From positions 1 through 26,467 of IMG/VR virus record IMGVR_UViG_3300025705_000238: DNA of 26,467 nt; one strand, 5' to 3'. Below, in pieces: positions 1,294 to 17,776 of the stretch (the stretch's first letter is position 1; each line of letters starts with the position of its first letter). This DNA is from a virus. Made by a program: the position numbers and the translations under genes. A model generated the notes under the pieces. The model ran no database searches. It was not told the origin of the DNA and saw nothing but the letters and a program-made list of their open reading frames with translations.

Positions 1294-2445
1294 TTAAAGT
1301 TTTGTTGTGGTTGATTCATATGTACGATTAAACTGATTGTTTACACGAATAAATGTTGTACACTTACTGAGTTGTTTGAGTGTGTTAGCACCAACATATG
1401 TACATGTTGATCGAACGCCGCCTAGAATGTTTTGCACAGTTCTAGCAACTTCTCCACGATAAGGAACAAGTACTTCACGTCCTTCACTTGAACGATACTC
1501 TTTTAGTCCACCAAAGTGCTTAGTGTTTGCCGCATCACTGCTCATTCCGTAGAACTTTATAAATTGTTTTTCTTCTATTTTATGTACACGATTGGACAAA
1601 TGCTCGCCAACTTGATATTCTAGTTCACTAGTTTCATAGTATCGGGTAATTACGTCACCGCCGCCTTCATCATGCCCAGCAAGCATACCACCCAGCATCA
1701 CAAAGTCTGCTCCGCCTGCAAATGCTTTTGCTACATCTCCAGGACAAGTACAACCGCCGTCAGCAATAATGTGTCCCCCAAGACCGTGAGCGGCATCAGC
1801 GCACTCAATGACAGCTGATAACTGCGGGTATCCAACACCAGTCTGTATCCTAGTAGTACAAACACTACCAGGCCCAATGCCAACTTTAACAATATCTGCT
1901 CCATTTAGTATTAACTCCTGTGTTTGATCTGCGGTAACAACATTACCTGCTATGATTACTACTTTGGGAAAGCGGAATTTAAATTCTCCCACAAACTCCA
2001 CAAAACGTTGACTGTATCCGTTTGCTACATCAATGCAGACGTATTTTAAATTTTCTTTACACACTGCATAGACTTTTTCAAACTTGTTTAAGTCACGATC
2101 CTGAATACCAATGCTCATAGCAACATAGTCACTACGCTCAGGTAAATCAGATGTAAAGTATTTGATTAAATCTTTTTCACTATATGTTTTAACTAGACAT
2201 GTAAAAATATGTCCTTCGGCAAGTTTATCTGCCATATCAAATGTACCAACACCATCCATGTTGCTTGCCATAATTGGAACACCTTTCCAATCATATTCTC
2301 CAGTCATAATATCCTGGTTATGGTTATAATTGCGGAAAGTGAATTCACGTTCTAAATTTACTTCTTTACGTGAGCCTAATGTGCTACGCTTTGGACGAAT
2401 CAAGACATCGCTGTAGTCCAATAGTACTTCATTTTCAATTCTCAT
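1294..2445 (-). CDS. guaC: GMP reductase
   Basis: 383 residues. GMP reductase turns GMP into IMP and ammonia using NADPH, moving guanine nucleotides back to the common purine precursor. The catalytic cysteine is Cys196 in [21 protein letters not shown] (60-69), [14 protein letters not shown] and [16 protein letters not shown] are typical of GuaC. The flap-like [16 protein letters not shown] also favours GuaC over IMP dehydrogenase, and there is no CBS domain. It is slightly longer than the bacterial enzyme (about 347), partly through an insert near residues 44-55 and a C-terminal tail. It starts 2 bases after clpS ends, so the two are probably co-translated. In this phage it may feed purines to the nrd-driven dNTP supply. 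Confidence 0.93.
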
Positions 2446-2447
2446 GT

Positions 2448-2753
2448 TTATTCTTTCTCTAATTCAACCTGTAGTGAATAACCGCGGCTACGACTATCAG
2501 CAAGTGTTTCACTTGCTTTTTGTTCTGCAATCTCATACACAAATACACCTGCTACGCCACGTCCTGCTTGGTGTATCGTCATTGTAATTTCAGTTGCAAC
2601 ATCAATATCATGACTAAAAATACCCTGTAGTACTTCAATAACATATTCCATTGGTGTACTATCGTCATTAAAAAACACTACCTTCCATCTTCCAGGAGGC
2701 TCAAGTGTTACTCGGTTTTCAGTTTTTTGTATGGTTTCAAATTCTGTTGACAT
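2448..2753 (-). CDS. clpS: ClpS, N-degron adaptor for ClpAP
   Basis: 101 residues. ClpS binds proteins that start with a large hydrophobic residue and delivers them to the ClpA/ClpP protease. The sequence covers the whole ClpS core. The pocket residues are all present: N29-D30-D31 in [10 protein letters not shown]35, and H61 in [11 protein letters not shown]. The end ([10 protein letters not shown]) matches the usual ClpS terminus. No ClpA or ClpP is seen in the window, so it would have to work with the host protease. It lies between hsp20, from which a hairpin separates it, and guaC, 2 bases downstream. The SD is AGAG. An intact pocket argues for a working adaptor, although ClpS can also inhibit ClpA on other substrates. 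Confidence 0.93.
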
Positions 2754-2812: not shown

Positions 2813-3247
2813 TTACACTTCAGTAATTGAAATCTTCTTGGGTTGAAGTTCTTCTGGAACCTCACGTACCAAATGAATGTTAAGCATACCTAAATCCAAG
2901 GTTGCATTTTCCACATGCACGTGATCCGCTAGCGTAAATGTACGCTTGAAGCTTCTACTACCGATTCCTTTATGTAAGTAAGTTGTGTCCTCATTGCCTT
3001 CTGGTGCAGTACCAGTTACTAAAAGTTCACTTCCGTCCTGTGTTACATCCAGGTTATCCATTCCAAATCCTGCAACGGCTACACTAATCATGTATTCGTC
3101 ATCATTAATTTGTACAATGTTATACGGGGGATAGTTACCATTTCCTGATGAACCTGCGAACTGACGATCCAAATTTTGGAACATTCTGTCAAATCCAACT
3201 GTAGCTCTGTGAAATTCAGGTAGGTTTATTGTTGTTAGTCTTGTCAT
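2813..3247 (-). CDS. hsp20: Small heat-shock chaperone, Hsp20/IbpA family
   Basis: 144 residues. It holds unfolding proteins and stops them aggregating without ATP. An IbpA-like N-terminus (GFDRMFQNL) leads into an alpha-crystallin domain: NYPPYNI, VAVAGFGMDNLDV, YLHKGIGSRSFKRTF, LADHVHVENATLDLGML, and the C-terminal ISI motif that docks subunits. The start is the ATG at 3247, which has AAGGAG eight bases upstream; a TTG start at 3271 would place that SD inside the coding region. Hsp20 genes are common in T4-like cyanophages. It has its own promoter and an ~80-base leader, and is followed by a terminator hairpin. It falls in a block with IF-3, bS21 and ClpS, suggesting control of protein synthesis and quality. 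Confidence 0.93.
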   Translation of the reverse strand: MTRLTTINLPEFHRATVGFDRMFQNLDRQFAGSSGNGNYPPYNIVQINDDEYMISVAVAGFGMDNLDVTQDGSELLVTGTAPEGNEDTTYLHKGIGSRSFKRTFTLADHVHVENATLDLGMLNIHLVREVPEELQPKKISITEV

Positions 3248-3379: not shown

Positions 3380-3634
3380 TTAGTATTTTCTATCGCTTTT
3401 ACTGGGTAATTCCATTCCCGATGACTTTTTAAGCCAGCGTTTACGTGCGGCTGCTTTTGCTTTTTTACGTTTGGCACTTGGTTTTTCAAAATGCTGTCGT
3501 TCACGTAACTCTTTAAGCAACCCATCGTTATTAATTTTTTTCTTTAATTTACGCAACGCACGGTTAACGTCATTGTTAATCACGGTTACATATAGCCCCT
3601 TTTCAGGTTCTTTTTTATTATAATCTCTACTCAT
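3380..3634 (-). CDS. rpsU: Ribosomal protein bS21
   Basis: 84 residues. bS21 is a small-subunit protein near the anti-Shine-Dalgarno end of 16S rRNA and helps mRNA binding during initiation. The core matches the family: VTVINNDVNRALRKLKKK, then ELRERQHFEKPSAKRKK and an Arg/Lys-rich helix. It has about 12 extra N-terminal residues and a C-terminus ending RKY. The HFEKPS segment is closer to alphaproteobacterial S21 than to the E. coli FYEKPT form. Its ATG overlaps the infC stop in ATGA, so translation is probably coupled to IF-3. bS21 is the ribosomal protein most often reported in marine phages. It can exchange on ribosomes, so a phage copy could replace the host protein. Confidence 0.95.
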   Translation of the reverse strand: MSRDYNKKEPEKGLYVTVINNDVNRALRKLKKKINNDGLLKELRERQHFEKPSAKRKKAKAAARKRWLKKSSGMELPSKSDRKY

Positions 3635-4167
3635 TTTTCGCCTTTTACTATTGCTATTAATCTGTTGCCGTTCAATGAGGGTTTAGCTTCGAATCCTAAA
3701 CCTTCCACTGTTTCCATCAACCTACTAATTATTTGAAAGCCAACTTGTTTGTTAGCCATTTCTCGACCTCTAAAGCGGACCATTAATTTTACATGGTTAC
3801 CTTTCTCTATAAATCGTTGAACATGCTTGCACTTGGTTTCGAAATCATGGGTATCAATATTTGGTTTAAATTGAACTTCCTTGACTTCAATACGACTCTC
3901 TCTTTGCTTTTTTGCTTGTTCTTTTTCTTTTTGTTTCTTTTGATACAAAAACTTATTTAAATCAACTATCTTGCAAACTGGCGGCTTGGCATTCTCAGTA
4001 ACTAGTACTAAATCCAATCCACGTTGTCTTGCGGCATTAAGGGCCGCAGCTTTGCTTAAGATACCTAGAGCTTCACCTTCAGCGTTAACTCGAACTTCAT
4101 GAAAGCGTATGCTATCGTTAGCTACCACGTCGGGTAACTTTGGTTTTCTTCTGTCAAATTTTGACAT
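3631..4167 (-). CDS. infC: Translation initiation factor IF-3, full length
   Basis: 178 residues, the normal size. IF-3 binds the 30S subunit, keeps 50S away and checks the start codon and initiator tRNA. The N-domain (about 12-78) has NDSIRFHEVRV and the signature KPPVCKIVD (61-69). A lysine-rich linker (76-95) leads to the C-domain, with KEVQFKPNIDTHDFETK and RFRGREMANKQVG (131-143). Both domains are intact, unlike a relic. It starts with ATG, whereas E. coli infC uses AUU for self-repression. The SD is GGAG, about 15 bases away. It is the first gene after a perfect consensus promoter and overlaps rpsU by ATGA. Likely role: shifting start-site choice towards phage mRNAs early in infection. 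Confidence 0.95.
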   Translation of the reverse strand: MSKFDRRKPKLPDVVANDSIRFHEVRVNAEGEALGILSKAAALNAARQRGLDLVLVTENAKPPVCKIVDLNKFLYQKKQKEKEQAKKQRESRIEVKEVQFKPNIDTHDFETKCKHVQRFIEKGNHVKLMVRFRGREMANKQVGFQIISRLMETVEGLGFEAKPSLNGNRLIAIVKGEK

Positions 4168-4203
4168 ATGTTTTTACTTTTTCTCCATTGGGTTAATATT
4201 ATT

Positions 4204-4232
4204 ATTATATACGATTATATACGATTTGTCAA
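4204..4232 (-). promoter_or_regulatory. Perfect sigma-70 consensus promoter for infC-rpsU
   Basis: TTGACA (4232-4227), a spacer of exactly 17, then TATAAT (4209-4204); both hexamers match the consensus fully. A second TATAAT lies inside the spacer because of a tandem ATTATATACG repeat. The stop codon of the upstream gene is part of the -35 box. RNA would start near 4197, giving a 30-base leader. Confidence 0.9.
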
Positions 4233-4672
4233 GCACTTTTCATTTCAAACTCATGTCTAACATCAGTTTCCATATCGTTGAAACTATAGTATACTTTTAA
4301 TCTATAATTAGTAATCAGTTTACACAAACCTTTATTGGTTTGTTCTGGAGCAACAAAAACTATCGGCACATCATCTGCCTTTTGCCATTCCATAGTTGCA
4401 ATAAACATCTCTACTGCGTTTGCTGTATCAGCATTAACAATAATAAAGTCTACCATACCACACACTGCTCTTGCCCAAGGTGCAGTTACATCATTGATGC
4501 CTTTGACATCATAATAGTATGTAATGCTATTCTCAGTGAATAATGTGTCGTATACTTGACTGATTCTTTTTACTTGTTCTTCATCCATACCCATTAAAAA
4601 TATGCTTGGGCCGTTCTCATTCAAATAAAGGGTAGGCGGGGTTACGCTATAAACGCTATTATCAAATTCCAT
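4229..4672 (-). CDS. Unknown protein
   Basis: 147 residues, not recognised. It alternates hydrophobic strands and helices: PSIFLMGMD, MVDFIIVNAD and VPIVFVAPE look like beta strands of an alpha/beta fold, with acidic residues after them, but no nucleotide-binding motif is complete. No membrane segment or signal peptide is seen. It begins one base after the stop of the 680-residue membrane protein and is the last gene of that run. Its stop codon lies inside the -35 box of the infC promoter. Confidence 0.75.
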   Translation of the reverse strand: MEFDNSVYSVTPPTLYLNENGPSIFLMGMDEEQVKRISQVYDTLFTENSITYYYDVKGINDVTAPWARAVCGMVDFIIVNADTANAVEMFIATMEWQKADDVPIVFVAPEQTNKGLCKLITNYRLKVYYSFNDMETDVRHEFEMKSA

Positions 4673-7087: not shown

Positions 7088-7294
7088 TTATGATTTTACT
7101 GTAAAGGTATCATTAATGCTATCGCCATTGATAGCTAATTCGTATCCACCAGATTCAGTTGGTCCATATGTGAACCCATGATCTGGAAGATTACCTAACA
7201 CTTGTTTTAATATATCTTGACTTGTTGTCTGGTTATCTACAAACGTATACCCGTCTATCCATTCTTGAATTGTTTCTGCTGTGTGTATTGCCAT
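7088..7294 (-). CDS. Small unknown protein
   Basis: 68 residues, acidic, not recognised. A short helix (AETIQEWIDGYTF) is followed by a segment rich in glycine and beta formers (FTYGPTESGGYELAINGD). Its ATG overlaps the stop of the P-loop kinase in TAATG, with AGGA eight bases before it, so the two are probably coupled. No motif indicates a function. Confidence 0.7.
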   Translation of the reverse strand: MAIHTAETIQEWIDGYTFVDNQTTSQDILKQVLGNLPDHGFTYGPTESGGYELAINGDSINDTFTVKS

Positions 7295-7977
7295 TATGAA
7301 TTATCCTGTATCCATTTTCTAGCAACTCTGTTGCGCACAGGAGCAGTAACAAATGCTCTGATGGATTTTTCTACCTGTTTAAAATTTTCTGCACGTGTTG
7401 GATCTTCTAGTCCGCCACTGTTGTCTACAACGTGGAAATCTTTAGCACCAAATATTTGTTGAAATTTCATAATATTTGATTGTACTTGTTTCCACATACT
7501 ACTAACCACATCACGTTTAAGTACTCTTGGACGATCTTGGTTACGTTGTTGTGACACTTCTTCACTTGTATTAACAAAAAGCATCATTGGTTCATATCCT
7601 AAGGATTTTAGTGCGGCACTGTGTTTGGCAACTTTTTCAACATCTTTACCTGTGCCATCAATAATAATACCAAGTCTGCCATCCAAGTGTGATGTTTCTT
7701 TATTCTTAGTAAGCTGTTTTGCACGATTACGAATTTCTTGTCCTTGTGGACTAGCAATAGCATCAGGATTTCGCAAATCAAGATCCTGCTTTTTTGCAAG
7801 GTATTCGTATATATCATCACTATTAATTGTTTTCATTCCAAGGCCAGTTAATAATTTTTTAGCGACAAAGCTCTTGCCGCTGCCTGGGCCTCCAGACAAG
7901 AAAATTGCTTTAAAAATAGCAGGGTCATTGACGCCTTCTGCAAAGTTATCTTCTTGTGTTATTTCTTCTATAAGCAT
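7294..7977 (-). CDS. P-loop kinase, zeta-toxin/polynucleotide-kinase-like
   Basis: 227 residues. A Walker A motif GGPGSGKS (29-36) follows the strand KAIFLS. SDDIYEYL comes next, then GIIIDGTG as the second strand with its acidic residue, and a basic stretch (RNQDRPRVLKRDVV) that could be the lid. This is the layout of small P-loop kinases such as the zeta-toxin and T4 polynucleotide kinase group. The phosphate acceptor cannot be told. A late promoter lies about 30 bases upstream, and an 8-bp inverted repeat covers the leader. It heads a run with a small unknown, the SNase-like protein, the membrane coiled-coil protein and another unknown. Confidence 0.85.
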   Translation of the reverse strand: MLIEEITQEDNFAEGVNDPAIFKAIFLSGGPGSGKSFVAKKLLTGLGMKTINSDDIYEYLAKKQDLDLRNPDAIASPQGQEIRNRAKQLTKNKETSHLDGRLGIIIDGTGKDVEKVAKHSAALKSLGYEPMMLFVNTSEEVSQQRNQDRPRVLKRDVVSSMWKQVQSNIMKFQQIFGAKDFHVVDNSGGLEDPTRAENFKQVEKSIRAFVTAPVRNRVARKWIQDNS

Positions 7978-8693: not shown

Positions 8694-8722
8694 ACTATAT
8701 AGTAAAACGTCTTACTTGTCAA
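8694..8722 (-). promoter_or_regulatory. Near-consensus sigma-70 promoter
   Basis: TTGACA (8722-8717), a 17-base spacer, TATAGT (8699-8694). RNA would start at 8687, the first base of the small membrane peptide's ATG. Confidence 0.85.
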
Positions 8723-9111: not shown

Positions 9112-9140
9112 ATAATACGGTAAAAAGGCTTGGTTGTCAA
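9112..9140 (-). promoter_or_regulatory. Near-consensus sigma-70 promoter
   Basis: TTGACA (9140-9135), a 17-base spacer, TATTAT (9117-9112). RNA would start near 9105, giving a 69-base leader to the gene at 9036. The leader holds a small AGGCA/TGCCT hairpin (9085-9098). Confidence 0.85.
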
Positions 9141-17747: not shown

Positions 17748-17776
17748 ATAATAACAGATAAATTATTGTGTGTCAA
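17748..17776 (-). promoter_or_regulatory. Near-consensus sigma-70 promoter
   Basis: TTGACA (17776-17771), a 17-base spacer, TATTAT (17753-17748). Predicted RNA start at 17741, the A of the nuclease ATG. Confidence 0.87.

Follow-up and report, generated by a model that had tools for sequence, protein, structure and literature searches.

Start-codon selection is governed by IF-3, and ribosomal protein bS21 is located next to the anti-Shine-Dalgarno sequence. The genes for both lie together in a 26,467-base IMG/VR virus record, IMGVR_UViG_3300025705_000238 (positions 1 to 26,467, here called the window). This raises the question of whether the two serve a phage as a set in translation initiation or are auxiliary genes that happen to be neighbors. 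It seems probable, judging from the sequence comparisons below, that they form a phage-specific translation-initiation operon whose two products are expressed jointly from a host-type promoter and act on the host 30S subunit. The minus strand of the window carries infC, rpsU, their promoter, an upstream gene termed gene X, and the genes for Hsp20 and ClpS.

Identification of infC and rpsU

The gene infC (3631-4167, minus strand) encodes a translation initiation factor IF-3 of 178 amino acids. Both Pfam domains, IF3_N (2.5e-25) and IF3_C (1.8e-27), score above their cut-offs in a single chain, and the motifs KPPVCKIVD and RFRGREM are both intact. The protein also matches phrog_9787. Its AF2 model has a pLDDT of 89, and the top PDB matches of the model are IF3 structures, including 30S-bound IF-3 (TM 0.77-0.81). 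Four residues that hardly vary among the bacterial IF-3s compared (D106, K110, G132, and R133) are retained in the window protein and in almost every relative, as are P62 and Y75, which are common in bacterial IF-3. Compared with E. coli IF-3, the core operon IF-3s possess a two-residue insert in the linker. They also carry Gln at 97, Lys at 120, Asn at 166, and Asn at 168 (E. coli numbering), each of which is rare or absent among the bacterial IF-3s compared. Since the key residues are kept, the phage-type residues are shared, and the predicted fold matches 30S-bound IF-3, the window protein is, on sequence and model, a real IF-3 with features of its own and no degraded copy.

Asn at position 168 is present in the window and in 33/33 core members, and 88 percent of the bacterial set has Arg there; in the window the Asn is followed by Arg, and the alignment register may be off by one. 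Arg-168 is a common feature of the IF-3 family and does not define it. The triplet GNR (167-169) was considered as a phage-only mark and rejected, because a Saprospiraceae IF-3 has GNR too; it is a strong trend and is not unique. A literature search for a list of IF-3 30S-contact residues found none, and residue 168 is for this reason given no functional interpretation here.

The gene rpsU (3380-3634, minus strand) encodes ribosomal protein bS21, a short basic protein of 84 amino acids. It matches Pfam Ribosomal_S21 (1.2e-17, 63.8 bits against a cut-off of 27) and phrog_21469, and the profile of the bS21 alignment (A2) matches the bS21 chains in solved ribosomes. The infC stop and the rpsU start share ATGA, seen on the plus strand as TCAT at 3631-3634. 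Thus, the preliminary description, which had read the locus as a full-length, two-domain IF-3 encoded beside bS21 and overlapping it by ATGA, is borne out on each of these points.

Promoter and translation start signals

A sigma70-type promoter, TTGACA-N17-TATAAT, is located at 4232-4204 (minus strand), its -10 ending 36 nt before the infC ATG. It matches the consensus at 12/12 positions, as had been claimed for it, and is the sole perfect match in the window. By its match to the consensus, the promoter would be strong and may act early. Promoter-like sites with at most one mismatch number six in the window against 0.46 expected, and because of this excess the phage seems to make wide use of host-type promoters. 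One-mismatch N17 sites were found upstream of phage genes at 17748-17776, 8694-8722, and 9112-9140 (-).

The place of the infC promoter and its N17 spacing are kept in five lineages: the window, L011, L002/L008, L003, and L040. In these the distance to infC is 34-39 nt, and the relatives match 10-11 of the 12 consensus positions that the window matches in full. The stop codon of gene X falls inside the -35, which is thereby partly fixed; the -10 and the spacing are not fixed in this way. In other relatives, TTGACA-N17-TATACT occurs about 150-180 nt upstream of gene X. This site was rejected because the leader alignment shows it within what looks like the end of a coding sequence (LDKDKYDPYTDTR-like), and its conservation may be that of the protein. 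The T4-type late motif TATAAATA gave no signal in the window, with three sites against 2.8 expected.

A short leader runs from the -10 to the infC ATG (4168-4203, minus strand) and contains GGAG about 15 nt before the start. A Shine-Dalgarno core was identified at 18/35 window genes, compared with 2.8 expected at random places, and the host therefore presumably uses Shine-Dalgarno pairing. The infC start of other relatives is overlapped either by gene X or by a short reading frame led by a Shine-Dalgarno site. Coupled translation of infC may thus be common in relatives with an overlapping upstream frame. In eight loci (L013, L014, L018, L020, L024, L025, L027, and L030), a frame of 10-15 codons, for example MITNQYAGTYEKV, overlaps the infC start codon and is preceded by a strong AAGGAG-like site, which suggests leader-coupled translation of the phage IF-3 there. 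The gene apparently starts with TTG in L004-L010, L002, and L008; in L004-L010 its first 13 nt or so overlap the end of gene X. Bacterial infC autoregulation involves an AUU-type start. No such start was recognized in phage infC, which uses ATG or, in some groups, TTG.

Putative action on the host 30S subunit

The proposed course begins at the host-sigma70-type promoter, from which a single mRNA for IF-3 and bS21 would be made. The ATGA overlap would couple their translation, so that the two proteins are produced together and in fixed proportion. The phage bS21 would then exchange into the platform of the host 30S, beside the anti-Shine-Dalgarno sequence, and the phage IF-3 would bind the host 30S during initiation. 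As a result, the 30S subunits of the infected cell would initiate with a matched phage IF-3/bS21 pair. We infer the 30S binding of both proteins, its timing, and its effect on mRNA choice from the two genes and their arrangement.

Published work touches on several of these steps. In Flavobacterium, the extent to which 30S complexes depend on IF3 varies with bS21 (PMC9976891). Incorporation of a phage bS21 into the 30S subunit has been described only for that of HTVC008M in E. coli, where the protein enters ribosomes that stay about 5 percent active, and the authors raised a possible need for additional factors from the virus or the host (PMC6375957). Expression data have been published only for other phages, those of Bacteroidetes, in which bS21 is expressed late (PMC9723584). 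Proteolysis has also been put forward, as a speculation, as a means by which phages favor the exchange of bS21 (PMC9976891). In several phages ClpS adjoins the pair, which fits such an exchange but is no evidence for it.

The pair could instead top up two limiting, exchangeable 30S components as host synthesis falls, so that initiation is sustained for all mRNAs with start choice unchanged. We regard this as unlikely, although several features agree with it. Because the window genes use ordinary Shine-Dalgarno sites, the phage mRNAs appear to ask for no altered start rule, and these sites lend no support to a redirected start-site choice. Most 30S-facing residues of IF-3 are kept, and the proteostasis and nucleotide genes nearby (Hsp20, ClpS, IMPDH, and RNR) suggest a general cell-maintenance set. 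However, the fixed phage-specific residues and the linker insert would be unneeded for mere supply, and a phage bS21 left E. coli ribosomes nearly inactive (PMC6375957).

Conservation of the infC-rpsU pair

The preliminary description had proposed a search of viral genomes for infC next to rpsU as well as trees of both with candidate hosts. When viral contigs were scanned with the window IF-3, nine relatives were recovered, and rpsU is directly downstream of infC in 9/9. A profile scan gave 80 IF-3 loci. These were collapsed at 92 percent identity and joined with loci from S21 probes to give 53 distinct viral IF-3s, of which 43 have rpsU immediately 3' of infC. Among the loci from IF-3 probes alone, rpsU adjoins infC in 39/48. 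The IF-3 probes were drawn from loci that all have S21, which inflates these proportions; the fraction among all viruses will be lower. Across the 43 loci, the S21 start lies at most 64 nt before the IF-3 end, as judged from longest-ORF calls, and at most 7 nt past it.

Bacterial loci were found to differ. About 78 bacterial infC loci were compared, drawn chiefly from Pseudomonadota and Bacteroidota and in most cases spanning about 1.5 kb to either side; with the exception of the viral contig L091/L183, none has rpsU beside infC. The bacterial infC-rpmI-rplT operon shares infC with the window, but there the gene is followed by those for L35 and L20, and such ORFs follow infC in L254. In the window, infC is followed by rpsU and the Hsp20 and ClpS genes, and the bacterial rpmI-rplT order is absent.

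The phage operon IF-3s group apart from bacterial IF-3 in a tree whose deep branches are only moderately supported, and the operon S21s split from standalone phage S21s as a group of their own (SH-aLRT 94). The nearest relative of the window IF-3 is that of L011 (65 percent). The IF-3 and S21 distance matrices are correlated (Mantel r = 0.90, 0/2000 permutations, n = 43). Since shared descent of linked genes alone gives such a correlation, it is no proof of contact and is taken, at the level of sequence, as joint inheritance. For both genes, dN amounts to between about one-tenth and one-quarter of dS in nearly all pairs tested, and both the IF-3 and the bS21 gene are by this measure under purifying selection. 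The earlier view that IF-3 and bS21 are coupled, and that the locus does not hold a single stray ribosomal gene, agrees with the conserved adjacency and the correlated distances. The preliminary description had gone further in proposing early production that would replace host IF-3/bS21 and shift initiation towards phage mRNAs; its interpretation as a whole is supported in part.

The adjacency is not obligatory in phages, because several IF-3 phages, including GAP32 and CBB, have no S21 next to IF-3, and in some S21 is encoded far from it. In Phosso, S21 is about 7 kb from IF-3, and in the uncultured huge-phage records LR756501 and LR756504 it is in a part of the genome distant from IF-3. No S21 was found anywhere in the GAP32 genome. 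Jumbo phages of the GAP32/CBB/XaC1 type resemble the window in having a phage IF-3 with ClpS adjoining, but they possess no rpsU beside it. In the phage collection, 71 records match the window IF-3, many of them jumbo phages and all under 60 percent identity.

The pair is also present in an isolate, Vibrio phage 2.275.O (MG592671), in which NVP2275O_044 to 046 encode IF-3, RpsU, and a ClpS-like protein in a row. As in the window, IF-3 is followed on the same strand by RpsU and the ClpS-like gene; unlike in the window, a 10-nt gap separates IF-3 and RpsU and there is no overlap. The IF-3 of this phage is 35 percent identical to that of the window and 44 percent identical to that of GAP32 over the match. 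It belongs to the GAP32 lineage, and a single clade with the operon IF-3s was rejected (AU p = 0.0003). The S21 counterpart of this test gave AU p = 0.67, the S21 tree being too short to discriminate. The pairing either arose more than once or is ancestral with repeated losses.

That infC and rpsU are two unrelated auxiliary genes, which became neighbors once and have been kept by linkage in one phage group, is improbable. One IF-3 clade does hold most of the adjacency, and some phages carry the two genes apart. Against this, the two genes still adjoin, overlapping or nearly touching, where IF-3 identity has fallen to about 36-47 percent. The GAP32-lineage IF-3 of Vibrio phage 2.275.O is paired as well, although an ancestral pair with losses could account for that.

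Neighboring genes and origin of the window

Gene X (4229-4672, minus strand) encodes a protein of 147 amino acids and is the upstream neighbor of infC. A homologue of 140-150 amino acids is present in 43/53 distinct loci; it directly precedes infC across the wider clade of the window, and in another set of loci it lies upstream at a distance of some 1.2 kb. It matched no family in Pfam or PHROG. Its model is confident and alpha/beta (pLDDT 91), and the fold matches are weak and receiver-like.

Downstream of the pair is a gene for the small heat-shock protein Hsp20 (2813-3244, minus strand; Pfam HSP20 4.2e-15), a candidate operon member placed by its adjacency. An Hsp20-like ORF follows the pair in L003 too. 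In the window, the Hsp20 gene is followed by that for the protease adaptor ClpS (2448-2753, minus strand; Pfam ClpS 6e-25); L002, L008, and Vibrio phage 2.275.O likewise have a ClpS-like ORF after the pair. A homologue of IMP dehydrogenase/GMP reductase (1294-2445, minus strand; Pfam 2e-68; phrog_9582) belongs to the same gene cluster. Elsewhere in the window, a Zeta-toxin/polynucleotide-kinase-like P-loop protein is encoded at 7294-7977 (minus strand; Pfam Zeta_toxin 2.9e-15). Rfam and tRNA scans of the window gave no matches.

Structural proteins of the virion, a DnaB-like helicase, an exonuclease, an endolysin, and ribonucleotide reductase are encoded around the pair. Pseudomonas phage PA5oct has the closest match to the helicase (58 percent), and Stenotrophomonas phage DLP_6 has the closest match to NrdA (62 percent). 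Both matches suggest that the window comes from a large tailed phage infecting Gram-negative bacteria. The possibility that the contig is bacterial, which the preliminary description had named as grounds for refutation, or that the genes are a bacterial contaminant is very remote: IF-3 and S21 are normally cellular genes and the relative L091 sits in a gammaproteobacterial MAG, but the window is catalogued as a virus record, virion proteins, the helicase, and the endolysin flank the pair, terminase genes are on the contigs of 4/12 relatives, the IF-3s closest to that of the window are viral, and L091 is best read as a misbinned virus. L091/L183 is contig NZGL01000024.1 in the 1.2-Mb MAG MED685 and carries the viral infC-rpsU operon. 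No other IF-3 was recovered from this MAG, and the contig is probably a misbinned virus.

Relation to known phage genes and implications

Huge phages were previously found to carry IF1, IF3, S1, S4, S21, and L7/L12, and interception of initiation was proposed (Al-Shayeb 2020, PMC7162821). The two genes and the proposal of initiation takeover are the same as for the window, but IF-3 and S21 were given there as separate genes, whereas the window has them in one overlapping operon. Phage IF-3 and the idea of a takeover of initiation are therefore not new (PMC7162821, PHROG 9787, and the 71 phage records). Phage bS21 was likewise already known, as the preliminary description had noted (Mizuno 2019, PMC6375957; Chen 2022, PMC9723584). 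Those proteins are also from tailed phages, often with Hsp20 near, but were not reported with IF-3. The bS21 of Chen (PMC9723584) is expressed late and lies beside structural genes, and the S21s of window-type operons form their own group. No description of a phage infC-rpsU operon was found in the open-licence PMC papers searched. As far as this literature shows, the conserved, phage-specific infC-rpsU operon has not been described before, although each of its two genes is known from phages.

A bolder proposal can be made, which we consider doubtful. The two-protein module would swap bS21 and IF-3 on the host 30S and rewrite start choice for phage mRNAs. It would have co-evolved in at least two IF-3 lineages, possibly having been assembled more than once, and IF-3 would be the missing partner that lets ribosomes with phage bS21 work.

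For the initiation operon itself, its recurrence and joint inheritance in dozens of uncultured phages suggest that the two proteins, as a set, take over the initiation step. Phage bS21 is common, and its benefit to the phage is unsolved, since the sole protein tested nearly stopped E. coli ribosomes (PMC6375957). A conserved operon that supplies IF-3 with bS21 gives bS21 a concrete candidate as partner. Since the pair is present in a phage already isolated, Vibrio phage 2.275.O, a possible reprogramming of the host initiation complex is directly testable.
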